Assembly (NCBI GenBank): GCA_018396995.1
Contig: JAGTQB010000009.1
Location: 1 to 46,512 of the forward strand
Source of the DNA: Candidatus Bathyarchaeota archaeon
GTDB taxonomy: Archaea > Thermoproteota > Bathyarchaeia > Bathyarchaeales > DTEX01
Direction of reading: 5' to 3'
DNA length: 46,512 bases
Made by a program: the position numbers and the translations under genes. Below are positions 27,997-41,274 of this stretch, piece by piece. Below the pieces are notes generated by a model. It ran no database searches. It was not told where the DNA came from and saw nothing but the letters and a program-made list of their open reading frames with translations. Within the stretch, counting starts at the first letter, position 1. Each line of letters begins with the position of its first letter.

Positions 27997-28503
27997 TTAA
28001 TGAGAGCCTTTTGCTAGGAGAGCGGAAAGTAAAATTTTTACCACTCTCTCCTTTGATGAGAGGAGCTCGCTGGATAACTCCTCCCCGAAATCTATTTGTT
28101 TTGGCTGAATTAGGAGTAGTTTTACGTCGGCATGAAATATCTTCGCAATATATTCGCAGAAAAGTTTTATGGGTAGAAAATGTGTTGAAAATACATGGCT
28201 TGCATCCAGGTCTTCTGGCTTTAGAAGAGCTATTCCGCCGGGTTTAAGGTTTAGCATAGCCGCATCGATTAACAGGACGTGTGAGGGTTTAAAATCCGCT
28301 ATTTCCTGCAGGTAGTTTTCTGGAGTTGTTTCACATTCAACCAGCAGAACTTTCTCTGGAACCTTACCCTTCAGATCCTGAACAACCTTTATCCCAACCG
28401 AGTCGTCCATTAAAATTGGGTTACCAACGCCAATAATAACTACTCTCTCCGCTCCTAAGAGCCACCTCTTCAGCTCCTTTTCAACATCTTTCTCTGTATT
28501 CAT
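27997..28503 (-). CDS. [NiFe]-hydrogenase maturation endopeptidase (HycI/FrcD family)
   Basis: 168 residues. Begins the peptidase core with VVIIGVGNPILMDDSVGIKV (nickel-sensing Glu/Asp position in MDDSVG), then LLVECETTPENYL and the LLIDAAMLNLKPGG strand, and SHVFSTHFLP with the conserved His. It clips the C-terminal tail from the hydrogenase large subunit after nickel insertion. It lies directly after mvhA (24 bases), whose product still carries such a tail, so the pairing is consistent. Last gene of the Hdr/Mvh operon. Confidence 0.9.
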   Translation of the reverse strand: MNTEKDVEKELKRWLLGAERVVIIGVGNPILMDDSVGIKVVQDLKGKVPEKVLLVECETTPENYLQEIADFKPSHVLLIDAAMLNLKPGGIALLKPEDLDASHVFSTHFLPIKLFCEYIAKIFHADVKLLLIQPKQIDFGEELSSELLSSKERVVKILLSALLAKGSH

Positions 28504-28527: not shown

Positions 28528-29982
28528 TTAACGCTGTATCCTTTTAACCAGTCTCTTCCTACTATCATAGATTTCTACCGTTAAAGGCATTTGCCCAAAA
28601 GCAAAGTGTGTTGCGCATGCGAAGCATGGGTCGTATGCCCTGAAGGCCATCTCAACCATGTTAAGTAAGCCCTCATCAACATGTCCTCCATGGATCAAGC
28701 CCTTGGCAGCATTACGTATCGACATATTTATTGACGGAACATTATTAACAGTTGCAACAATCAAGTTAACGTCTTTAACCAGCGCTCTCTCATCCAAAAT
28801 ATAGTGGTGTATTAGGGTTCCCCTAGCAGCCTCTACGACACCTACACCCTCACCTGGCTCACCGGGCACATTACGGACATTTTTGCTCGTTATCTCCGGA
28901 TCTTTCACGAGTTCAAGGGCCCTTTCGGCAGCATACAGTAGCTCAATGAGTCTAGCCCAGTGGAAGGCTAATGTCGAGTGCACCGGCCTCCCACCTAAAG
29001 TCCTATACATCTCCTTGTATTCTTCATTTGCAAGTGGTGTTGCCATTCCTTCTGAAACGTTTAGTCTAGCGAGTGGGCCAACCCGATATATTCCACTATC
29101 AGGCCCGTCCACAAAACCCTTCCAACCAACCTTCCTCAGGTATGGAAACTTAGTGTAAGTCCACTCCTCCACATGCTCAGCTATGTGATCTAAGTAATTC
29201 CTAGCATCAAACTTCGCGAACTCGCTTCCATACGGATCTACAACCCTTATCTTCCCATCATAGAAGTTCATTCTATTCTTCTCGTCTACCAGACCCATAT
29301 AATAGGTTTTTAGCGTGTAGGCATCACTCTTTATTAAATCAGCATACTCAGTGTTCTCTAGAACAATTTTATGAAAGATCTCAAGTGAGAACTGCGCGAA
29401 TTTAACGGATGATTCAACCATTTTCTCAATTTCCTGTCTCTTCTCCTCGCTTAAGGGTTTTGATAAGCCGCCAGGTAAACCAGCTACTGGGTGGGTTGCT
29501 TTCCCACCAATAATCTCAACTATTTTCTGCCCATAGGACCTATGCTTTATAACCTCCCTTCCAACATCTAAGCCAACCTTCTCAATAACCCCAAGAATAT
29601 TACGTTTCTCTTTAGGGGCTCCTGGCCCAACTATGAAGTCCGGTCCACCTAAGTAGTAGAAGTGGAGGGTATGATCATATATTATGTAACCGCAGTACAT
29701 GAGCTCCCTGAGCTTCTTAGCTGGTTCAGGGGGCTCTACATGAAATGCTGCATCGAGTGCCTTTGTAGAAGCTATATGATGAGCTACTGGACATACACCA
29801 CATATCCTACTCGTTAAAATTGGCATATCCTCAGCTCTTCTCCCAATACAGAACCTCTCAAAGCCACGTAGCTCAGGAACCTGTAGATAGGCATTATTAA
29901 CTTCTCCAGTCTCATCTAGGAAGATTACTATTTTTCCATGCCCCTCAAGTCTCGTGATCGGATCAATAACTATTTCCTTCAT
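28528..29982 (-). CDS. mvhA: F420-non-reducing (group 3c) [NiFe]-hydrogenase large subunit
   Basis: 484 residues. Holds the NiFe active site: N-terminal RICGVCPVAHH (Cys61, Cys64) and C-terminal DPCFACATH (Cys453, Cys456), followed by a 25-residue tail for the maturation protease. Oxidises H2 in the cytoplasm; as MvhA it works with MvhG and MvhD and passes electrons to HdrA. Full length. Its ATG overlaps the mvhG stop by four bases. No hyp maturation genes are in this window. Confidence 0.94.
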   Translation of the reverse strand: MKEIVIDPITRLEGHGKIVIFLDETGEVNNAYLQVPELRGFERFCIGRRAEDMPILTSRICGVCPVAHHIASTKALDAAFHVEPPEPAKKLRELMYCGYIIYDHTLHFYYLGGPDFIVGPGAPKEKRNILGVIEKVGLDVGREVIKHRSYGQKIVEIIGGKATHPVAGLPGGLSKPLSEEKRQEIEKMVESSVKFAQFSLEIFHKIVLENTEYADLIKSDAYTLKTYYMGLVDEKNRMNFYDGKIRVVDPYGSEFAKFDARNYLDHIAEHVEEWTYTKFPYLRKVGWKGFVDGPDSGIYRVGPLARLNVSEGMATPLANEEYKEMYRTLGGRPVHSTLAFHWARLIELLYAAERALELVKDPEITSKNVRNVPGEPGEGVGVVEAARGTLIHHYILDERALVKDVNLIVATVNNVPSINMSIRNAAKGLIHGGHVDEGLLNMVEMAFRAYDPCFACATHFAFGQMPLTVEIYDSRKRLVKRIQR

Positions 29983-30974
29983 TTACGCATCACCCTCCTC
30001 TTGAGAATTGAGGCTGGTAAAGCATACATGTAGAATGTTCCAATTGGATCCACTATCTGATCAATTATCTTCTCAACCTCCTCAGCACTATATTTTTCCT
30101 TTTCTTCCTCTACACCTAGAATAGATGCTAATGCGCTTATCATCGCCGCACCTTGTTCAGGAGACTCTGGGCAGGGTCCGCCGCAACCGGTACATGGCAT
30201 ATCTACCTTTAGGCATCTAGCGCTGCATCCGCCTCTAGTCGCCGGCCCCATACATATAATTCCTTGCTCAAGGAGGCATCTCTCCGGATCAACAACTTTT
30301 TCATATATGCGGTATATTCTGGATATCTTCTTGCTCTCCTTCTTCTTTGGGCATTCATCGCAGACAGACTTTAGTGGAGCTAGGACTGAACCTTTAGGCG
30401 GCAGCTCTCCTTTAAGCATTCCATTTGCTAGCGTCTCAAGCGCATATATTGTTCGTTCAACGGCAGGCGGGCATCCGGGAACGTAATAGTCCACGTCGAC
30501 AACCTGACTTAAGGTATGAACCGTATCATAGAACTCCGGAATCTCCAGCTCGCCCTCCTTCACGCGAACCTTAGGTTTTGGTACAAGATTTTCTGGATTA
30601 ACCGTTGAGAACGTTTCAAGGTAAACCTTTTTGAAGATATCTTCTCTGTCAGTTAGATTTGCTAGGCCTGGAATGCCTCCGAGATGCGAGCAGGCTCCGT
30701 AGGCTACTAGAATCTTCGACTTCTGCCTTAAGAGTTTTGCCATTCGCTCCTGTTCACTATTACGTATACCACCGTTAAAGAAGCACACGTCAATGTATTT
30801 ATCAGACATCCTCTCAACATCCTTATACTTTATGTCCATTGCAACTGGCCAGAAGACTATATCCGCAACATGAATGACATCAAGTATTTTCTCATCTATG
30901 TCAAGCACAGCTATCTCGCAGCCGCCGCAACTAGCAGCCCAATAAAACGCAAACTTAAGCTTCCCTTCTCCCAA
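29979..30974 (-). CDS. mvhG: F420-non-reducing hydrogenase small subunit
   Basis: 331 residues. Electron-transfer subunit with iron-sulfur clusters: N-terminal CGGCEIAVLD for the proximal cluster, YGACSHLGG, PGCPPAVERT, then further Cys clusters (CDECPKKK, CIMCMGP-like region ending CLKVDMPCTGCGGPCPE). No Tat signal, so it is cytoplasmic as expected for group 3 enzymes. The start is TTG 30974 with aaggagggg upstream. Translationally coupled to mvhA. Confidence 0.92.
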   Translation of the reverse strand: MGEGKLKFAFYWAASCGGCEIAVLDIDEKILDVIHVADIVFWPVAMDIKYKDVERMSDKYIDVCFFNGGIRNSEQERMAKLLRQKSKILVAYGACSHLGGIPGLANLTDREDIFKKVYLETFSTVNPENLVPKPKVRVKEGELEIPEFYDTVHTLSQVVDVDYYVPGCPPAVERTIYALETLANGMLKGELPPKGSVLAPLKSVCDECPKKKESKKISRIYRIYEKVVDPERCLLEQGIICMGPATRGGCSARCLKVDMPCTGCGGPCPESPEQGAAMISALASILGVEEEKEKYSAEEVEKIIDQIVDPIGTFYMYALPASILKRRVMRK

Positions 30975-30988
30975 AAATCCACCCCTCC

Positions 30989-31900
30989 TTAAGAACTTTT
31001 TTGGCTGGAATTCTCCTTAAAAACTTTTCTAAGTAAAGCTGTGGGCTTAACCCTTAACTCGTCAAGAGCCAGTTCTTGTGGTTGGAAGCCCATGGCTAAC
31101 CCAAGTAGTTGTGTGTAGTGTAGTGTTGGAAGACCAATGCTTACGTTAAATATTCTCTCTATCCTCGGCTGGTTAAGGTCAAACATTATATGACAGAATG
31201 GGCAAACCGTTATTAAGGCTTCCGCCCCAGCCGCTATAATGTGATCCAGTTTCTCTTTAGCCATCTTGAATGGGATATCCTCATTTACGCCTATTATTGG
31301 GTTTCCGCAGCACTCGTTCTCGCCCCTATAACTTATGCATTTAGCCCCAGTAAGACCGATTAGATCCTTAAGAAGCCTCGGGTTCTCCGGATCATCTTTC
31401 CCAACAACCTTTTTAGGTCTAATTATATGGCAGCCCGGGTGCTGGGCTACTCTAAGCATCGACAACGGCCTTTTAATGGAGTCTTTAATCTTCTTGAAGC
31501 CCACATCCTCAGACAAAACATGGACTAAATGCTTAACCTCTATGGTGCCCCTAAACTCCATATCAAGGATCTTTAAATATTCGTTTATCCTCTCCCTTTC
31601 CTCCTTATCCTCTCTAAGCATCTTATTGACCTTATGGAGGGAGCTGAAGCATCCATTACAAAGGGTTAGGATATTTAGTTGCTCCATCTCAGCTCTACAT
31701 AAGTTTCTGGCAGCCAGCAGCACTGCTGTGTCATGGTTTACTGGGTCTATTGGGAAGCCACAGCAATTATATTCGGGCATTTCAACAAGCTCCACACCGA
31801 GGGCTGATAAAACCCTCCTAGCGGATATTTCATAGCTTGAGAGTCTATATGGAATCACGCACCCCAGAAAAATCAGGTATCTAGGTTTCCCAGAAACCAT
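30989..31900 (-). CDS. hdrB: Heterodisulfide reductase subunit B (CCG-domain iron-sulfur protein)
   Basis: 303 residues with two CCG domains. First: LGCVIPYR, YNCCGFP, LCNGCF; second: QHPGCHIIRP, ENECCGNP, CPFCHIMFD. These cysteines bind the noncubane [4Fe-4S] clusters that cleave a disulfide in methanogen HdrB. In a non-methanogen the natural acceptor is unknown (perhaps another disulfide). ATG 31900 is preferred, directly after the hdrC stop with ggtggag upstream; a longer in-frame start (to 31918) overlaps hdrC. Works with HdrC. Confidence 0.92.
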   Translation of the reverse strand: MVSGKPRYLIFLGCVIPYRLSSYEISARRVLSALGVELVEMPEYNCCGFPIDPVNHDTAVLLAARNLCRAEMEQLNILTLCNGCFSSLHKVNKMLREDKEERERINEYLKILDMEFRGTIEVKHLVHVLSEDVGFKKIKDSIKRPLSMLRVAQHPGCHIIRPKKVVGKDDPENPRLLKDLIGLTGAKCISYRGENECCGNPIIGVNEDIPFKMAKEKLDHIIAAGAEALITVCPFCHIMFDLNQPRIERIFNVSIGLPTLHYTQLLGLAMGFQPQELALDELRVKPTALLRKVFKENSSQKSS

Positions 31901-31901
31901 T

Positions 31902-32444
31902 TTACTCCACCCTCTCAAAGGTTTGTGAACCCTTTATGAGGGATGAGAGACCCGTTAACTCAAAAATTTTTAAAATTTCCCCGGGATTTGTCTTGGGCAG
32001 TGGTGGCAGGCCCAGCTCCTCCCTCCTCTTAATGCGCGATTCCGGAATAACATATACAAAGCCTGTTTTCATTAGATTCTCAGCTAGCTCCCTGTAGACT
32101 AATGGCATTGATTCAGTATATTGAATGGAGATATTTCGTAGAACGCGAACGACATTCGCTATCTCCACATCCTGTGGGCAATGATCAACGCATGTGTAGC
32201 ATGTGGTGCAGAGCCACAAATGTTTATCACGTAGAATCTTATCCTTTAGGCCTAGCTGAACCATGCGTGCTATCCTCTTAGGCTTATAGAGGTCGCTAAA
32301 GCGAGAGACTGGGCATTCTGCAGTGCATGTCCCACATTGAAAACATAATGTAACCTTCTCCGCCCCGTGCATTTTTGAGACCACATATTTGAACTTCGGA
32401 TCGATCTCCTCAGCCCTAATTATTTGAGCCGACTCCGCCATCAT
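31902..32444 (-). CDS. hdrC: Heterodisulfide reductase subunit C (ferredoxin-type)
   Basis: 180 residues. Two [4Fe-4S] motifs: [14 protein letters not shown] and [14 protein letters not shown]. It relays electrons from HdrA to HdrB. Length and spacing are typical of HdrC. ATG overlaps the mvhD stop by four bases. Confidence 0.92.
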
Positions 32445-32896
32445 TTACCCCCCGACCTTTTTAGCGGATTTGGACCAAGCTTCTTAATCTCTTTAACCAT
32501 CTCGCTCACAACTTTTGCGAACTTGTCTCCCTCAGATGCTGAGATCCACTCTATCCATAGTCTCTCAGGCTCTATGCCAAACTCCTTTAAAACCCTCTTC
32601 AATAATAGGACCCTCCTAAGAGCCTTGAAGTTTCCAGCTAGGTAATGGCAGTCCGCTGGGAGGTGGCACCCCGCGACTAATACGCCGTCAGCGCCATTTT
32701 TAAATGCCTCTAAAATGAAAATTGGATCAACCCTACCACTACACATAACGCGTATCACTCGTATGTTTGGCGGATACTGTATTCTACTAACGCCTGCCAA
32801 GTCCGCTCCAGCATATGAGCACCAGTTGCATAGAAAACCAACTATTATCGGCTCAAACTCTTTTTCAGACATTTCTACTTGCTCCTTCCCAGACAT
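32441..32896 (-). CDS. mvhD: MvhD-type [2Fe-2S] electron-transfer subunit
   Basis: 151 residues. MvhD family: [16 protein letters not shown] at the start, [17 protein letters not shown], then [16 protein letters not shown], giving the five conserved cysteines of the [2Fe-2S] site. Links the MvhAG hydrogenase to HdrA. The operon also holds a second, longer MvhD-like gene at 35907 with a winged-helix tail; this one is the standard single-domain form. Four bases separate it from hdrA. Confidence 0.93.
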
Positions 32897-32900
32897 GATC

Positions 32901-35900
32901 TCACCCCGCTAATATAGCCTTAACTTGTGATAGAATTTGCTCTGTTGTGAAGTGCTGGGGCTTAATAGCTTTCGTTGGGCAGGCTGAGCCACATGTCCCA
33001 CAACCCTTACATAGAGCCTCAATCACATGGGCCGAAATCTTTCCCTCCTTCTCCACCATCTCAATTGCGCCAAACGGGCACACCGCCTCACAAATCCTAC
33101 ACCCACCACATAGATCTTCATCCACTGATGCAACTATACCTTCTAGCTCGAGAACACTCTTAGAGAGAATCGTTGCCGCTCTAGATGCGGCGGCGCAAGC
33201 CTGCGATATGCTTTCATCTATAGATTTTGGTCCATGGGCTAGGCCGCAAAGAAATATGCCGTCTGTCTGGAAGTCGACTGGGCGGAGCTTCATGTGAGCT
33301 TCTAAGAAGAAGCCATCCTTTGTGAGGGGGACCTTAAGCATTTCAGCCACCTTCCTATTATCTGGATTTGGAACAACCGCGGCGCTAAGAACAACTAAGT
33401 CTGGGTATATCTCGATCTCCTGCTTGAGAACTGGCTCCCAGAAAACAAGCCTAAGCCTATCGCCATCCTTAACCACAAGAGGTTTCCGCGAATCCTCATA
33501 GTTTATGAAAACCACGCCCTTCTTTAATGCCTCATGATAATATTTCTCCTTAAAGCCATAGCTCCTAATGTCTTTGTAAAGTATATAGACTTCTGTCTCA
33601 GGGCTTATCTCCTTTATCTTTAGGGCATTCTTTATGGCTTCACTGCAACAGATCCTTGAGCAGTTTGGGTTTTCCTCGTTCCTGGCACCCACACACTGAA
33701 TCATGGCTACAGTCTTTGCGTTGAACAGCCCTTTATATACCATTTCTTCCAGCTCGCGCTGCGTTATGATCCTTGGGTCAACGCCATATAGGTACTCCTT
33801 TGGCTTATACTCGGTAGCTCCAGTAGCAACTATTATAACTCCATGTTCTATCTCCTTAATCTCGCCACCATGAAGTATTTTGGACTTAAAGTTTCCAACG
33901 AAACCGCTTACCTCAACAACCTCAGCGCCGAGATAAACATGTATATTAGAACACTTATTTACTTCATTAATGAGGTTTTTAAGGTATTCTTGTGGATCCT
34001 CCCCCTCAAGTAGATAATATATTCTTCTTAGATTTCCGCCGAGCTCCTTCTCACGCTCCACAAGGTGTACTTCAAAACCTTGCCTAGCGAGTTCTACTGC
34101 GGCGGTCATCCCAGAGACCCCTCCACCGATCACAAGCGCGACTGGAATAACGTTCACCATAGGCTTCTTTAGGGGTCTTAGCATCCTCGCCTTCGCAACC
34201 GCCGAGCGGATTAAATCCTTTGCCTTCTCGGTAGCCGCTTTAGGCTCATGCATATGAACCCAGCTGCATTGATCGCGTATATTAGCCATCTCAAATAAAT
34301 ACTCGTTTAACCCAGCCTCGCGGACGGTCTCCCTAAATAGAGGCTCATGGGTTCTAGGCGTACAGCTGGCGACTACAACGCGGTTCAACTTATACTCAAT
34401 GATCTTCTCCTTAATTCTCTTCTGGGTATCCTCGGAGCAAGTATAGAGGTTATGCTCGGCGTAAACAACATTGGGCAGGGTTTTAGCGTACTCAGTAACC
34501 TCTGGAACGTTAACGTAGCCGCCAATATTAATCCCGCAGTGGCAGATAAAGACGCCTATGCGTGGCTCTTCCCCCAAGACATCTCTTTCCTGAGGATACA
34601 CTTTAGAGGTTACAAGTTTCCCCCTCTCAGAGGCCACTATGCCCATCGCCTTGGCTGCAGCTCCACTCGCCTGCGCCACGCTCTCGGGAATATCTTTCGG
34701 CCCGGCAAACGCTCCACAGACGAATACGCCTGGTCTCGAAGTTTCAATTGGTGAGAGTGGATTAGTTAAGCAGAAACCGTATTCATTAAGCTTTATTCCT
34801 ACGGCATCCGCCAGTTTCTTAGCATTCTTCGGGGGCCTCATACCAATGGATAAGACGACCATATCAAACTCTTCTTCACATGGCTTCTCGTCAACTATAT
34901 ACCTCAATATGAGATTCCTCGTGGATGGATCCTCATTAATGCTTGCAACTCTAGCCCTCACAAACCTTATTCCATACTCCTCCATGGCGCGTTTATAGTA
35001 CTTCTCAAAGTCCTTGCCGTAGGCGCGTATATCCATGTAAAAGATTGTGCACTCAAGTTTTGTTGGGACGTGTTCCTTAGCGATGATAGCTTCCTTTATC
35101 GCGTACATACAGCAGGCAGCCGAACAATATTCATTTCCGATTTGAGAATCCCTTGAGCCAACGCACTGAATAAAGGCAATTTTTCTTGGTATCCTCCCAT
35201 CAGATGGTCTTAAAACTATGCCGCCATAGGGCCCTGAAGCGCTCAGAATACGCTCAAATTCTATAGAAGTGACAACGTTTGGGTAGCGCTTGTAACCATA
35301 TTCACTCTTAACTACTGGATTAAATTCTTCAAATCCCGGCGCAAGTATTATTGCTCCAACAGATAACTCGGTAATATCATCTTTGTCTTCATATGTTATG
35401 GCTCCAGCCCTACATAACTCCTTACATGTTCCACAGCCAATACATCTCTCTCTATCAATAACGTATGTCCGTGGGACGGCCTGAACATACTTTACATAGA
35501 TGGCGCTCCTCTTACTTAAACCCTCATCATACTCATCTATAGCTTCAACCGGGCACTCCCTTGCACAGACACCACACCCAGTACATTTCTCCGGGTTAAC
35601 ATAGCGGGCTCTCCTCCTTATCTTAACCCTAAAGTTCCCAGGCTCCCCTTCAACACCCTCCACTTCGGCGTGGGTTATTAGGTGGATGTTGGGATGTCTT
35701 CCCGCGGCAACTAGCTTAGGTGCGAGGATGCACATGGCACAATCATTTGTGGGGAATGTTTTATCAAGCTGAGCCATTGTTCCTCCGATGCTTGGAGATT
35801 CATCAAGTAGGTAGACTCTGAAGCCGGAGTCGGCTAGGTCGAGTGCAGCCTGTATGCCAGCTACCCCCCCACCTACCACAAGAACTGCTCCAACTTTACT

Positions 35901-35906
35901 CCCCAT
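32901..35906 (-). CDS. hdrA: Heterodisulfide reductase subunit A with extra N-terminal HdrA-like flavin module
   Basis: 1001 residues against about 660 for methanogen HdrA. From about residue 445 it is a standard HdrA: the N-domain cluster motif ([18 protein letters not shown]), FAD domain [14 protein letters not shown] (about 595), [20 protein letters not shown], and two C-terminal ferredoxin motifs ([12 protein letters not shown] about 933; [12 protein letters not shown] about 966). Residues 1-440 are an additional module with its own FAD site ([15 protein letters not shown]), ferredoxins [12 protein letters not shown] (108) and [11 protein letters not shown] (155), and CVGSRD...YCSAACCM. 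HdrA is the flavin-based electron-bifurcating subunit; the added module gives a second flavin and more clusters. Start abuts the preceding stop (TAAATG). Confidence 0.92.
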
Positions 35907-36656
35907 TTAATCCACCTCCAACGCCCTATAAAGCGGGGTATAACCTTCAATCCTATCCATTGCTAGTAATCCCCTGCGCCTAAGGGCGACGATATGCTGT
36001 AACACTAGAGGTGAGTCGACACCAATACGCTTAGAAATCTCCTCAACAGACATGGGTTTCTCCTTCGTTAAAAGGTAAATTTTACTTCGGATATACTCCT
36101 CCCCCATAACCTCCTCAATCAACCTATCAATCTCCTCCTGACTAATTTTCTCTCCATACGCGTTCGCTTTCTCAGTAAGCTTCCTTTCCCTACCAGAGAG
36201 TATTCTTAGCCTAGACCAGGTAACTGCCTGCTTAGCCGCCTGAATATTGAAGAGTATCTCTTCATCAACCTCCTTACCCTTAAATAATGGGCCGAGACTT
36301 TTTATTCGCTCAACAAACCTCTCAACTAAATTTAGGAAACTCTTGTTTTCGATGGGTGAAACAAGTTCTAAGTGTAAGCGCTCCGGCTCTAAGCCAGCAA
36401 GCGTTATAACCTTCTTCAGTAAATTAATTGTTCGCTCAGCATATAGGTTCCCCTCTATGAAGTGGCAGTCCGGCGGACTGCATCCAATAACTATTATGCC
36501 ATCAACCCTTTTGGCAAAGGACTCCAATATGACGATTGGATCAAGCCTACCAATACACTTAACCTGGATAACACCAGTATTTGGCGGCGCCTCTATCTCC
36601 CACTCTGGAAAAGCCCAACTACATGTAAAACATATGATTTTCGGATTACCCTCCAT
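35907..36656 (-). CDS. MvhD-like iron-sulfur domain fused to a winged helix
   Basis: 249 residues. Residues 1-~140 are MvhD-like: CFTCSWAF, QVKCIGRLDPIVILE and IGCSPPDCHFIEGN keep the [2Fe-2S] cysteines; ordinary MvhD ends near here. A linker (about 140-175) leads to a winged helix (about 180-249: IYLLTKEKPMSVEEISKRIG, SPLVLQHIVALRRRGLL). Winged helices of this kind bind DNA, so the protein could be a redox-sensing regulator or use the helix to dock on HdrA. It lies between the gltD-like gene and hdrA in the operon with no gaps, which argues for a structural or regulatory role tied to the complex. Confidence 0.8.
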   Translation of the reverse strand: MEGNPKIICFTCSWAFPEWEIEAPPNTGVIQVKCIGRLDPIVILESFAKRVDGIIVIGCSPPDCHFIEGNLYAERTINLLKKVITLAGLEPERLHLELVSPIENKSFLNLVERFVERIKSLGPLFKGKEVDEEILFNIQAAKQAVTWSRLRILSGRERKLTEKANAYGEKISQEEIDRLIEEVMGEEYIRSKIYLLTKEKPMSVEEISKRIGVDSPLVLQHIVALRRRGLLAMDRIEGYTPLYRALEVD

Positions 36657-36659
36657 ACG

Positions 36660-38384
36660 CTACGTCACCTCCGCTATGGCGTTCATCACGGCAGCTAAAA
36701 TTCTCTCATTGGAAATATTCTCCATAGTTATAGCCTCCTTCGGGCACCTTGCAGCGCAAGTTCCACAACCCTTACACAGTTCCTCACTGACCTGCGCCAC
36801 ACCATTCTCGTTCTTCGTAATGGCGTTATAGGGGCATATTTCTACACAGAGACCGCAGCCAATACACCTGTTCTCGTCAACGACTGCCTTATCTTTCACG
36901 CATAGGTCTATGCCCATGAGACACTCGGCGCATGGGCCGCAGCCAAGACAACGGAGAGCCTCAAACCTCGCCGCCCGCTGCACTCTCTCAAGATAAGCCC
37001 TCACCTCCTCGAAGCTTAGGCGCGGCTTCTCAACAGGAGACTCGTATCTCCGCTCCTTCTTACTTAATGAGCTCCAATTCTTAACCCATGTTACCTCCTC
37101 AAGATTCTCTCTCTTAAGAGGCTCCCCTCTAAGATAGCAATGTATTGAAAGAGCCGCTCTTTTCCCAGCGCCAACAGCTTCAATTATACTTGCAGGACCG
37201 CTGACAACATCCCCTCCAGCAAATACTCCCGGGATATTGGTCTCCATTGTTAAAGGATTAACTTCAATCAACCCATCTTTACTCACGATTTCGGGCGGTA
37301 AGGTCCATGTTTCAACTACCTGGCCGATGGCTGGTATAACCAGGTCTACTTCATACTGGTGTTCGGTGAATGGTATTGGTATCGGACGCCTCCGCCCGCT
37401 CTCATCCGGCTCACTTAGGCGCATCCTTATACATTCAACAGCCTTAACTCTTCCATTTTCGCCAATTATCCGCTTAGGAGACACCAAAAAGTAGAATTTC
37501 ACACCGTCTTTCTCGGCTATCTCAACCTCCCATGGGTGCGCAGGCATTTCCTGGCGTGAACGCCTGTAAAGAATCATAACCTCTTTAGCTCCAAGTCTCT
37601 TCGCAGTTCTTGCAGCGTCGATTGCCGTATTTCCGCCGCCAATAACAGCCACCCTCTCGCCCACATCTATTTGTTTACCAAGGGATAAAGCTCGTAGAAA
37701 ATCTACTGCATGTATAACTCCCTCAAGATCCTCGCCTGGAATATTCATCTTTGCGCTCGCTTGAGCTCCAACAGCGATAAAAATCGCTTTATATCCATCT
37801 CTTCTCAAACTATCAATGGTTACATCTTTTCCAAATTCCACACCAGTTTTTATCTCAACGCCCAAATCCTTTATGTACTCTATTTCATTTCTAACAACGA
37901 ATCTCTCCAGTCGGTAGTCTGGTATGCAGTAGCGCATCATCCCACCTGGCTCTGGCATACGTTCAAAGACAGTTACTGGGTAGCCTAGTTTAGCGAGCTC
38001 GTAGGCCGCGGCTAGGCCAGCTGGACCAGCACCTATTATGGCAATTTTCTCACTGTACCTCTTTGGTATTGGCTCAGCCCTAACTCTCCCCTGTTCCCGC
38101 TCAATGTCCGCCACAAGTCTCTTCAGGGATCTTATAGCAACCGCCTGATCAATGTTGATCCTACTGCAAGCATCTTCACAAGGAGAAAAACATACTCTCC
38201 CACAGATTGCTGGGAAAGGTAGGTCTCTCCTTATAACTTCAACGGCTTCTTTAAATTTTCCCATCTGGATGAGACAGACATATGCTTGAACGTTAACGTG
38301 AGCTGGACATGCAGCTCTGCACGGAGGAAATTTTCTTACAGTTTCCTCCAATCTTTCCATGAGGAGAGAGAAAACCTCCTTCAT
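36660..38384 (-). CDS. GltD-like NAD(P)H-dependent oxidoreductase with C-terminal ferredoxin clusters
   Basis: 574 residues. N-terminal Cys-rich helical domain (CRAACPAHVNVQAY, CGRVCFSPCEDAC), then a two-dinucleotide flavoprotein: FAD site AIIGAGPAGLAAAYELAKLG, ERMPEPGGMMRY, NAD(P) site VIGGGNTAIDAARTAKRLG, and the FAD-closing GGDVVSGPASIIEAV. The tail adds CLGCGPCAECLMG plus two ferredoxin motifs (CIGCGLCVEICPYN, CKGCGTCAARCPKE). This matches the GltD/NfnB/SudA class that moves electrons between NAD(P)H and ferredoxin-like partners. As first gene of the Hdr operon it probably links the Hdr complex to NAD(P)H. ATG 38384 has no clear ribosome site and could be leaderless. Confidence 0.88.
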   Translation of the reverse strand: MKEVFSLLMERLEETVRKFPPCRAACPAHVNVQAYVCLIQMGKFKEAVEVIRRDLPFPAICGRVCFSPCEDACSRINIDQAVAIRSLKRLVADIEREQGRVRAEPIPKRYSEKIAIIGAGPAGLAAAYELAKLGYPVTVFERMPEPGGMMRYCIPDYRLERFVVRNEIEYIKDLGVEIKTGVEFGKDVTIDSLRRDGYKAIFIAVGAQASAKMNIPGEDLEGVIHAVDFLRALSLGKQIDVGERVAVIGGGNTAIDAARTAKRLGAKEVMILYRRSRQEMPAHPWEVEIAEKDGVKFYFLVSPKRIIGENGRVKAVECIRMRLSEPDESGRRRPIPIPFTEHQYEVDLVIPAIGQVVETWTLPPEIVSKDGLIEVNPLTMETNIPGVFAGGDVVSGPASIIEAVGAGKRAALSIHCYLRGEPLKRENLEEVTWVKNWSSLSKKERRYESPVEKPRLSFEEVRAYLERVQRAARFEALRCLGCGPCAECLMGIDLCVKDKAVVDENRCIGCGLCVEICPYNAITKNENGVAQVSEELCKGCGTCAARCPKEAITMENISNERILAAVMNAIAEVT

Positions 38385-38491: not shown

Positions 38492-39460
38492 TTAACGTTT
38501 CTTCCTACTTCTCAACGGGCTGGTTGCTATAAGAAGAGAAACAATTGAGACTGAGACAAGCGTCATTGTTGGTGATAGTAGGCTGAGAAGAGGAATATTG
38601 AAGAGATAAGAGAGCAATTTTACGAGGACACTTATAGAGATAAAGCCTAAACATAAGGAAAATAGCAGCTTAAAGTTCTCTTTTTCCACATGTTTTATTG
38701 CAGTAATGCCAATTTGCATTCCAATTAGAGAGCCGGTGAGAATTAAGAGCACCAACGTGAAATTGACGTTCCCCTTAAGGGCGTGTGTTAAAGACGCGTA
38801 CAGAGAGTTTAACAGTATCCAGAAGGCACACGTCCCGGATGCCGCCGCCGGCTCAAAGCTAGCTACATAAATTAGCAGTGGGATTAAGATAAAGCCGCCA
38901 CCAGCCCCTAAAAAACCAGCGAAAAAACCGCTGACAAAGCCCATTAAAACTATTATCCATGCTGAAATTTTCCCCCTACTTGACCAAGATATGACGATGA
39001 ATGGCGGGATTTTAAGCTCCGCCAATCTATACCATGGAGATAAGTTCTTCCTTTTGTAGTCATTGAGCTTCGAGGATAATCTTTCGTGGATCATATATGT
39101 GGAAATAAAACCTAGGATTAAGGCATATAATAGGCTTACAACCAAGTTCATGTAGTAGACACCAATTATCTTCAGATGCTCGATTAATCGCGCCCCGCAT
39201 TCGGCTCCGGGAATTGAGGCAATGGCTGTAATAGAACCAGTTTTTACCTCAACATTACCCAGAAATTTATGTCTCAATGAGTTAACTAGGGAAGAAATAA
39301 AGACCCCCACTATACTTGTCCCAATAGATATATTTGCTGGCAAGCCCAAGCTAATGAGAAGTGGTGTAAGAATAAATCCTCCGCCAAGGCCGAAAAATCC
39401 TGATAAAATGCCGACTACAAAGCCTACAGCAATTATGAGTAGCTCTAGCAAAATTGACAT
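38492..39460 (-). CDS. TauE/SafE family permease (sulfite/organosulfonate or anion exporter type)
   Basis: 322 residues, about 8 membrane helices in two homologous halves, each with the glycine-rich opening helix: GFVVGILSGFFGLGGGFILTP and GFVSGFFAGFLGAGGGFILIP (as two halves of these segments), and the following P-loop-like SIGTSIVG / ASGTCAFW. Known members move sulfite, taurine-related sulfonates or sulfolactate; the substrate here is unknown. It lies between the RHH-GcvH gene and the Hdr operon on the same strand, so a sulfur-linked function is suggested by context only. Confidence 0.85.
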   Translation of the reverse strand: MSILLELLIIAVGFVVGILSGFFGLGGGFILTPLLISLGLPANISIGTSIVGVFISSLVNSLRHKFLGNVEVKTGSITAIASIPGAECGARLIEHLKIIGVYYMNLVVSLLYALILGFISTYMIHERLSSKLNDYKRKNLSPWYRLAELKIPPFIVISWSSRGKISAWIIVLMGFVSGFFAGFLGAGGGFILIPLLIYVASFEPAAASGTCAFWILLNSLYASLTHALKGNVNFTLVLLILTGSLIGMQIGITAIKHVEKENFKLLFSLCLGFISISVLVKLLSYLFNIPLLSLLSPTMTLVSVSIVSLLIATSPLRSRKKR

Positions 39461-39518: not shown

Positions 39519-40112
39519 CTACTCCCTTAGTCTTCCCTCTATCTTACTTACCCACTTGTTGTACTCCCTAGCTGTTAATAGGTCCTTTAGCTCTTCCTCA
39601 AGTACCAGAGAATTCTTTGGCTTAATCTCAAGTATCCAACCTTCACCGTATGGATCCTCGTTTATTAGGTGTGGTTCGGCTTTTAGAGCCTCGTTAACTT
39701 TAACTATTTTTCCGCTCACTGGTGCATAGATATCGAAGATGAACATCCATGTTTCAACCATGCCTATTGGCTCCATTTTCTTAACTTCCTTTCCAACTGG
39801 TTCAGTCATGACATGCGCAATGCCCTTTAAGTGTCTGGCAGCGTAATCGGTTAATCCGATGCGTACATTGCCCTCGGGAGTTATCTGAGACCAAACATGC
39901 TTAGGCGAATACAGCAATTGTTCTTGAACCTTCGCTAAAACCTCCTTTCTCCTTTCCTCCGGTATCCCCCTTGTGCGCATTAGTTCCTCTAGGCGTAGCC
40001 TTATAGCCTCAGAAACAAACTCCGAGACACTCCTGTAAAGGCCCGTTTTAATTATCTTCTCGATTTCTTCTATCAATTCTTGTCTTACACTAACTGTTCT
40101 CCACTCGGACAC
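39519..40112 (-). CDS. Ribbon-helix-helix DNA-binding domain fused to a GcvH-like domain lacking the lipoyl lysine
   Basis: 197 residues. Residues 1-45 are a CopG-type ribbon-helix-helix (TVSVRQELIEEIEKII, YRSVSEFVSEAIRLRLEEL). After a linker, residues ~75-195 are a glycine-cleavage H-protein fold: DYAARHLKGIAHV, then GMVETWMFIFDIYAPVSG, VNEALKAEPHLINEDPYGEGW. In real GcvH the lipoylated Lys lies in ESVKAxSD; here the aligned residue is Met123, so it cannot carry lipoate. The domain is therefore probably a sensor or scaffold, and the protein a regulator. Start is GTG 40112 with a strong ggaggtg site. Upstream of TauE and the Hdr operon on the same strand, divergent from phoU. Confidence 0.85.
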   Translation of the reverse strand: MSEWRTVSVRQELIEEIEKIIKTGLYRSVSEFVSEAIRLRLEELMRTRGIPEERRKEVLAKVQEQLLYSPKHVWSQITPEGNVRIGLTDYAARHLKGIAHVMTEPVGKEVKKMEPIGMVETWMFIFDIYAPVSGKIVKVNEALKAEPHLINEDPYGEGWILEIKPKNSLVLEEELKDLLTAREYNKWVSKIEGRLRE

Positions 40113-40131
40113 CCCTTACACCTCCTTTAAA

Positions 40132-40225
40132 TTTCCATGATATATAACATAAGCGAAAAATATATATGTGTTGCAAATAAAATAATTTTTGATAAATACT
40201 ATATAAACCGTGATTATCATGGAAA
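40132..40225. promoter_or_regulatory. Widely spaced 11-bp inverted repeat flanking the divergent promoter
   Basis: tttccatgata (40132-40142) and tatcatggaaa (40215-40225) are exact inverted copies, one before the RHH-GcvH ribosome site and one over the phoU start codon. TATA-like atatat sequences lie between. Suitable as two operator half-sites for the RHH or AbrB-type regulator encoded on either side. Confidence 0.4.
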
Positions 40226-41274
40226 GTAGAAAATTACAGAGAGTTGGTCGTTCAACTATAACAGTTTCACTTCCAAATAAATGGATAAAGGAGAACGGTA
40301 TTAGGCCGGGAGATATAGTATTTATAGTGCCAGAGAAAGATGGAACTTTAAGGATAGTGCCTAGAGAGCGCTTCAGCCAAGAAAAATTTGAAGAGGAATA
40401 CGTAATTAATGCTGATGCATGCACGGATACCGGTCTTCTCGAAAGGATGGTTGTTGGCGCCTATCTCCTCGGAAAAAATGTCATTAGAATTACATCAGCG
40501 AATAGAATAGAGAAGGCTCATATGGATGAGATTAGAAGAATCGTACGAAAGCTCGTTGGCTTAGGTATACTGGAGGAGACCGAGAATAATGTACTTTTAC
40601 ACTGTTCACTTGACGAAACCAAGTTTAAATTTGATATGCTAATTAGAAGATTGGCTCTGCTCGTATTAACGGTATTCTCAGAGGCGATGCGAGCTCTCCT
40701 TAAAAACGACAAGAGGTTGGCTCAAGAGGCTATTGAGAGGGAGAATGAGGTGGATACAATTTATTACTTGGCAATACGCCTACTTCTCTCTGCACAAGAA
40801 AGGGAAGAAGTACGTGAACAGACAGGTCTAACAGACATACGCTTTCTACCAGCTGCAAGGTTGTTATTGCAATCTTTAGAGCTTGTAGGGGATATCTCTG
40901 AAGACATTGCGAAGAAAGTGATATCTCTAAGAGATAGCGGAGAGACATTAAGTGAAGAGGATATAGAAAAAATATATAATATTGGAGAGAAGGTACAAGA
41001 AATTGTAAAAACCTCCGTCGAGAGCCTTTTTACGGGGGATGTAAAGCTGGCTAACACAATACTTGAGATGAAAAGATCCCTTAAAAATGAGATAGAGAAG
41101 ATCTTTTACGAGCTTCCTAAAGTGCCATACTTAAGGGCCATTGTCTCATCTATAAGCAATATAATGCACATCGGATCGATAAGCGCAGAGATAGCAATAA
41201 ATAGAGCAATAGGCGAGCAAAGCGAGTCTCTTAAAAATATAGTTGAAGTTGTTAGGCATTCCTGGAAAAAGTAG
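40219..41274 (+). CDS. phoU: PhoU-family regulator with N-terminal AbrB/SpoVT DNA-binding domain
   Basis: 351 residues. Residues 1-45 form a swapped-hairpin AbrB domain (RKLQRVGRSTITVSLPNKWI, RPGDIVFIV). The rest is the PhoU double three-helix bundle (RRLALLVLTVFSEAMRALL, REVDTIYYLAIRL-like ENEVDTIYYLAIRLLL, LVGDISEDIAKKVISL, ISAEIAINRAIG). This archaeal form is thought to control phosphate uptake genes. Start at ATG 40219; a GTG at 40210 is possible. The start codon lies in one arm of an inverted repeat. No pst transport genes are in the window. Confidence 0.82.
   Translation: MESRKLQRVGRSTITVSLPNKWIKENGIRPGDIVFIVPEKDGTLRIVPRERFSQEKFEEEYVINADACTDTGLLERMVVGAYLLGKNVIRITSANRIEKAHMDEIRRIVRKLVGLGILEETENNVLLHCSLDETKFKFDMLIRRLALLVLTVFSEAMRALLKNDKRLAQEAIERENEVDTIYYLAIRLLLSAQEREEVREQTGLTDIRFLPAARLLLQSLELVGDISEDIAKKVISLRDSGETLSEEDIEKIYNIGEKVQEIVKTSVESLFTGDVKLANTILEMKRSLKNEIEKIFYELPKVPYLRAIVSSISNIMHIGSISAEIAINRAIGEQSESLKNIVEVVRHSWKK

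Follow-up and report, generated by a model that had tools for sequence, protein, structure and literature searches.

Domain organization of the RHH–GcvH fusion protein

On the minus strand of the window (the whole stretch of 46 512 nt that was analysed) we identified, at 39519..40112, a gene with a GTG start codon that specifies a protein of 197 aa, recognized from profile matches and relatives, in which an N-terminal ribbon-helix-helix (RHH) domain is joined to a C-terminal domain of the glycine-cleavage H-protein (GcvH) type. The sequence AAAGGAGG lies 8 nt 5′ of the start codon. The RHH domain occupies residues 1–46 (39975..40112), which on their own score 23.7 bits against Pfam RHH_1 (gathering score 20.5) and also match the ParD-like NCBIfam model TIGR02606 (E = 4.4 × 10−4). 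A linker of helical character (residues 47–66; 39915..39974), for which pLDDT is < 50 over most of its length in an AlphaFold model, leads into a GcvH-like lipoyl-fold domain (residues 67–190; 39543..39914) that matches Pfam GCV_H (E = 2.5 × 10−31); the protein additionally exceeds the cut-off of the NCBIfam GcvH subfamily model NF002270.

The AlphaFold model was built with 59 sequences and has a mean pLDDT of 79.6, compared with only 66 for an earlier model built with 20. Its GcvH part matches the lipoylated H-protein of Escherichia coli (PDB 3ab9) with a TM score of 0.95. Helices of the RHH domain are present at residues 11–21 and 29–47, and its N-terminal strand is unformed in what is a monomer model of a presumably obligate dimer, with linker residues 48–64 poorly modelled. 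When aligned to the GcvH structures 1onl, 3ift and 3hgb, the lipoyl-lysine of the latter falls, without gaps, on Met123 (39744..39746). This residue is the centre of a Trp122-Met123-Phe124 hairpin tip (W-M-F; 39741..39749), which forms the turn joining strands 115–121 and 125–129 in the model, within a segment (residues 121–130) of mean pLDDT about 88. A Lys in a shifted register was considered and ruled out, as the alignment to the lipoylated GcvH structures is ungapped. The sequence DIYAPVSG is found at residues 127–134 and PYGEGW at residues 154–159. A sequence-only reading of this stretch had described a well-kept H-protein fold fused to an RHH, with the lipoylated Lys replaced by Met123 and the DIYAPVSG turn and PYGEGW strand retained, and the profile scores, the structural comparison and the alignment bear it out on each of these points. 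The data support a putative DNA-binding protein whose GcvH domain could no longer be lipoylated at the usual site.

Genomic context

Divergent from the fusion gene is a gene for an AbrB/MazE-PhoU protein (40210..41274, plus strand; Pfam PhoU and MazE_antitoxin), a neighbour found in nearly all fusion loci that reach that far. Downstream, and likewise on the minus strand, the next gene encodes a TauE/SafE family membrane protein (38492..39460; Pfam), present in part of the relatives. It is followed by genes for a GltD-like NAD(P)/FAD oxidoreductase with ferredoxin domains (36660..38384; Pfam and NCBIfam), a protein with an FlpD/MvhD domain and a C-terminal HTH (FlpD–HTH; 35907..36656; profile matches), an HdrA of 1001 aa with two flavoprotein halves (32901..35906; profile matches), MvhD (32441..32896; Pfam), HdrC (31902..32444; Pfam and NCBIfam), HdrB (30989..31918; Pfam and NCBIfam), a VhuG-like hydrogenase small subunit (29979..30974; Pfam and NCBIfam), a VhuA-like [NiFe] hydrogenase large subunit (28528..29982; Pfam and NCBIfam) and a HycI-type hydrogenase maturation protease (27997..28503; Pfam). 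The two-half HdrA resembles the ‘type II’ HdrA of PMC12054007. The FlpD–HTH protein, which carries the cysteine motifs CFTC, KCIGRLD and GCSPPDC, is a second fusion of an enzyme subunit with a DNA-binding domain in this operon; about 41 genomes of the order encode it complete or nearly so.

Across relatives, the fusion gene is usually the first gene of the Hdr/[NiFe]-hydrogenase operon, and in 29 of the 42 genomes with the fusion it lies ≤ 5 kb from the FlpD–HTH gene of that operon. For two of the other 13 (G181 and G191) the fusion and the operon marker are on separate contigs, those of G181 being at contig ends. Among 163 genomes, 31 possess both the fusion and a full-length FlpD–HTH protein, 10 and 11 possess one only and 111 neither (odds ratio 31, P = 9 × 10−16, Fisher test, with kinship of the genomes ignored).

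Six members of the genus that do not have this HdrA nevertheless retain the fusion (G001, G002, G004, G005, G006 and G010). Downstream of the fusion gene in G002, G004 (contig C2), G006 and G010 come TauE, a gene for a 124-aa protein and a NuoE/NuoF/NuoG-like and [NiFe] hydrogenase gene cluster, which holds small and large [NiFe] subunits (Pfam assignments being from the G002 copy only) and which in G010 is preceded by an intervening hydrogenase cluster on the opposite strand. For G001 and G005 the contig, or the stretch examined, ends before any such cluster. Where the flank suffices, the fusion thus heads a Hox-type hydrogenase operon in relatives without this Hdr. The conserved 124-aa protein (e.g. 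locus L114, 8110..8484, minus strand), for which no Pfam match was found, adjoins TauE in G013 and, in several relatives, within the hydrogenase operon. Within the stretch examined, G013 and G015 have no Hdr or hydrogenase genes 3′ of the fusion, and in both another Hdr-hydrogenase operon lies past the PhoU gene; in these two as well as in G105 and G199 no Hdr or hydrogenase operon is visible directly downstream of the regulator. As the regulator persists without Hdr and in these four genomes, the genes under its control may differ. Hdr cannot be its sole partner, since the regulator persists in six close relatives that lack this Hdr, and in four of these a Hox-type cluster lies downstream.

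Lipoate machinery in the source genome

The source genome carries a Lys-bearing GcvH on contig C38, adjoining a pyridine-nucleotide-disulphide oxidoreductase, and an LplA-type ligase on contig C12; lipoate is therefore probably present in the cell, and lipoylation is plausible there, but not at the usual site of the fusion protein. The sequence-only reading had suggested that the domain perhaps docks onto a lipoate-handling or Hdr-type enzyme; the proximity to the FlpD–HTH gene described above supports a link to an Hdr-type enzyme, onto which the domain may dock, whereas no such linkage was seen for lipoate handling, the ligase and the Lys-bearing GcvH being on other contigs. No match to GcvP (PF02347) was found in the source genome, which is 98.5 % complete, whilst 10 of 14 control genomes had one. 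The GcvH/oxidoreductase pair (locus L182, 1683..3472), in a genome without GcvP, may represent a lipoyl redox carrier that works apart from glycine cleavage. A GcvH-like protein of Baldrarchaeum (locus L055, 8037..9589) has ESGKW at the lipoyl site, and its gene has immediately after it what is, judging from sequence only, an apparent lipoate–protein ligase gene.

Distribution, conservation and selection

A search of archaeal genomes for the same RHH–GcvH fusion found it in dozens of relatives as one gene. The fusion model matches 42 of 163 genomes of the order (Bathyarchaeota), spread over four family codes and with partial matches in G015, G099, G165 and G181, and because of this the fusion is regarded as real and not as an assembly artefact. 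A DNA pattern for ETWMFxFDxY was present in 33 of 257 genomes of the class, every one inside the order, and the near relatives in named records are likewise Candidatus Bathyarchaeota. The sole apparent full-length match outside Bathyarchaeota (locus L048, Dehalococcoidales) turned out to be an ordinary Lys-bearing GcvH and was rejected.

All 48 distinct fusion proteins that were aligned contain the RHH and Trp122. Position 123 is occupied by Met in 36, Trp in eight, Pro in three and Leu in one, and by Lys in none. The family comprises two clades, with W-M-F and W-W-F tips, respectively, and in several genomes both are found in tandem; three members of the W-W-F clade have a W-P tip, the column assignment of which depends on the alignment because the tip is longer. 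The question raised by the sequence-only reading, whether Met is conserved, can accordingly be answered positively for one clade, whilst across the whole family it is Trp122 that is constant, followed elsewhere by Trp, Pro or Leu. In a tree of 135 GcvH domains, which is based on few columns and leaves many forks unresolved, the fusions fall into a single clade to which no Lys-bearing GcvH belongs (SH-aLRT 99).

For five closer pairs the dN/dS of the GcvH part was about 0.004–0.04 (0.0293/0.692, 0.0399/2.04, 0.0068/1.79, 0.0154/0.685 and 0.0102/0.361), with dS saturated in distant pairs, and the dN/dS of the RHH was also low. These estimates indicate strong purifying selection on the GcvH half of the fusion protein and, together with the invariance of Trp122, agree with the earlier proposal that the lipoyl-less domain is maintained for something other than carrying lipoate. 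An assembly fusion or a pseudogene was ruled out by the dozens of genomes and the low dN/dS.

Occurrence of the two domains apart from each other

Either half is also found without the other. In G056 an RHH 63 % identical over 61 residues is joined to DUF2096 at the same locus, and in G112 and G099 Lys-less GcvH domains with a Trp tip (ETWMF and ETWNF) occur without an RHH (locus L195, 5169..5663, and locus L216, 238..723). Such an arrangement therefore fits a DNA-binding module combined with an input module.

The RHH–DUF2096 gene (locus L131, 5258..6064) is situated between the AbrB-PhoU and HdrA genes. In G008 a second, apparently degenerate copy without an RHH (locus L130, 4984..5364, minus strand) has kept ETWMF, with an intact fusion also present. 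RHH proteins of 119 aa with a Cys-rich C-terminus (CTNDFVH...CPMFGWF...GCKEKKKHCTWFVG) are specified at locus L213 (1101..1460, minus strand) and locus L126 (12261..12620, plus strand), and both genes have the same promoter element 5′ of them as the fusion gene.

A conserved DNA element upstream of the fusion gene

Alignment of 38 upstream regions, from copies that are first in their operon, revealed three conserved blocks. Nearest to the gene is a 5′ leader, ATATATCA...AAAGGAGG (40121..40145, minus strand), which includes the ribosome-binding site. Further upstream lies block 2, TATTTGCAACACATATATAT (40160..40179, minus strand), with the 20 bp family consensus TATATGCATTAnATATATAT, which both the phylogenetic footprint and its genome-wide association with genes of this RHH family mark as a candidate operator/promoter element. 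The most distal block, TATTTATAGTATTTACTA (40190..40207, minus strand), probably serves the divergent PhoU gene as core promoter. Part of block 2 may be a TATA box; inspection by eye showed no clear inverted repeat inside it, and no palindrome was pinned down.

Allowing one mismatch, we searched 11 genomes for block 2 and obtained 13 matches, versus two for the reversed pattern used as a control. Nine of the 13, including that of the L126 gene at 12261, are located no more than 60 bp 5′ of a gene encoding this RHH; in seven of these nine it is a fusion gene, of the family from whose promoters the motif had been derived. The other two precede RHH genes with a Cys-rich C-terminus, in G042 (contig C10) and G045 (contig C13), neither of which was used to define the motif. 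As the element was derived from fusion promoters, these two genes and, weakly, the DUF2096 gene constitute the only independent test; the score for the RHH–DUF2096 gene of G056 was 13.2, against 10.7 for the 99th percentile of random pieces. A score of 23.7 was obtained at the operon start in G199.

Proposed function and alternative explanations

We propose, with a probability of roughly 60 %, that the protein is an RHH regulator which autocontrols its own Hdr/hydrogenase operon, with the Lys-less GcvH serving as an input domain, most likely by docking. An RHH dimer would bind the element just 5′ of its own gene and, once bound, would regulate, as an activator or a repressor, that gene together with the electron-bifurcating Hdr/[NiFe]-hydrogenase operon it heads; the divergently oriented AbrB-PhoU gene may be under the same control. 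The C-terminal domain would be a former lipoyl carrier, not lipoylatable at the usual site, whose conserved hydrophobic W-M-F tip most likely serves to dock it, as a lipoyl arm would, on a partner protein from that electron-transfer system; the occupancy or redox state of this partner may then be the signal that alters DNA binding. That the former swinging-arm site now bears an invariant aromatic tip suggests contact with another protein, perhaps as a mimic of the lipoyl arm. A more specific version, which we put forward tentatively and consider rather doubtful, is that of a decoy carrier: the tip would imitate the lipoyl arm in the acceptor site of a flavin or iron-sulfur enzyme (hydrogenase/Hdr) and, by competing there with the genuine substrate or carrier, would report occupancy or redox state directly to the promoter.

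Alternatively, the GcvH domain may sense a small molecule, the lipoyl-arm cleft binding free lipoate, lipoamide, a thiol or a disulfide, with Trp122 and Met123 in the pocket. Enzyme- or carrier-derived ligand domains are common in one-component regulators, the fold is almost exactly kept (TM 0.95), conserved residues surround the tip and the genome, with its LplA and Lys-bearing GcvH, probably provides lipoate; nevertheless, hydrophobic residues in a hairpin turn, at the site of the arm in H-protein, suit a contact over a pocket, and in G112 and G099 the domain occurs with no DNA-binding part attached, such that we see this as a possible explanation but not a probable one. Somewhat less credible still is a GcvH domain that acts purely as an oligomerization scaffold and senses nothing, its W-M-F tip packing on another copy or, in genomes with tandem genes, on the W-W-F paralogue. 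RHH proteins work as dimers or tetramers, exposed aromatic tips need burial and the tandem paralogues of several genomes could form hetero-oligomers. Most genomes, however, contain a single copy, free-standing GcvH proteins with the Trp tip occur, and DUF2096 or a Cys-rich module replaces the C-terminal domain in related RHH genes, as expected for input modules.

We consider it improbable that the main role of the protein is that of a non-lipoylated subunit or an assembly factor in an Hdr/hydrogenase complex, comparable to LbpA, with its RHH a secondary feature. The fusion is the conserved first gene of an Hdr operon, Lys-less GcvH proteins with the Trp tip exist in free-standing form, and in sHdr sulfur oxidation the GcvH-like LbpA proteins are without exception found together with Hdr-like clusters (PMC6067878); yet Lys is kept in 95 of 95 LbpA members (PMC6067878), the RHH is present in every fusion protein aligned and has a low dN/dS, and the gene persists in genomes without the Hdr. 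An antitoxin of a toxin–antitoxin pair, to which the weak ParD-like score of the RHH might point, was rejected, given that no toxin gene adjoins, that the neighbours are conserved metabolic genes across several families and that a whole, folded GcvH domain makes up the C-terminus.

Comparison with known systems

In the open-access literature searched we found neither an earlier description of an RHH–GcvH fusion nor a described regulator of hydrogen/electron-bifurcation genes in Bathyarchaeota. If our regulator proposal is true, the protein would be a transcription factor whose input domain is a co-opted lipoyl carrier. For the hydrogen/electron-bifurcation genes of the largely uncultured Bathyarchaeota it provides a named candidate regulator together with a candidate binding site, and its lipoyl site is under selection for something besides lipoate.

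With GcvH (PF01597, NF002270) the fusion protein shares the fold, a Glu three residues before and a Gly 11 residues after the lipoyl site, and the motifs DxYxPVSG and NEDPYG.GW. It differs from GcvH in having Met, Trp, Pro or Leu in place of the lipoyl-Lys, after an invariant Trp, in the addition of the RHH and in occurring where the genome has no GcvP. Among known Hdr-linked proteins, LbpA is the closest relative of the GcvH type, and its gene, too, accompanies an Hdr-type cluster (PMC6067878), although LbpA retains the Lys and no DNA-binding domain has been described for it (PMC6067878). The clusters differ as well, that of the fusion being HdrABC-MvhD-[NiFe] hydrogenase and not sHdr (hdrC1B1A-hyp-hdrC2B2).

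The GcvH-L protein of streptococci (PDB 5a35) similarly has a GcvH fold in a role outside glycine cleavage; it shares only 17 % identity with the fusion and is not tied to DNA binding, being linked instead to ADP-ribosylation. In overall architecture the fusion protein resembles one-component regulators such as NikR, in which an RHH is combined with an ACT-like nickel-sensing domain: both have an N-terminal RHH and a C-terminal input domain, and autoregulation is apparent for NikR-type proteins and predicted for the fusion, the putative input domain of which is, unlike the ACT-type ligand domain of NikR, a lipoyl-fold carrier.
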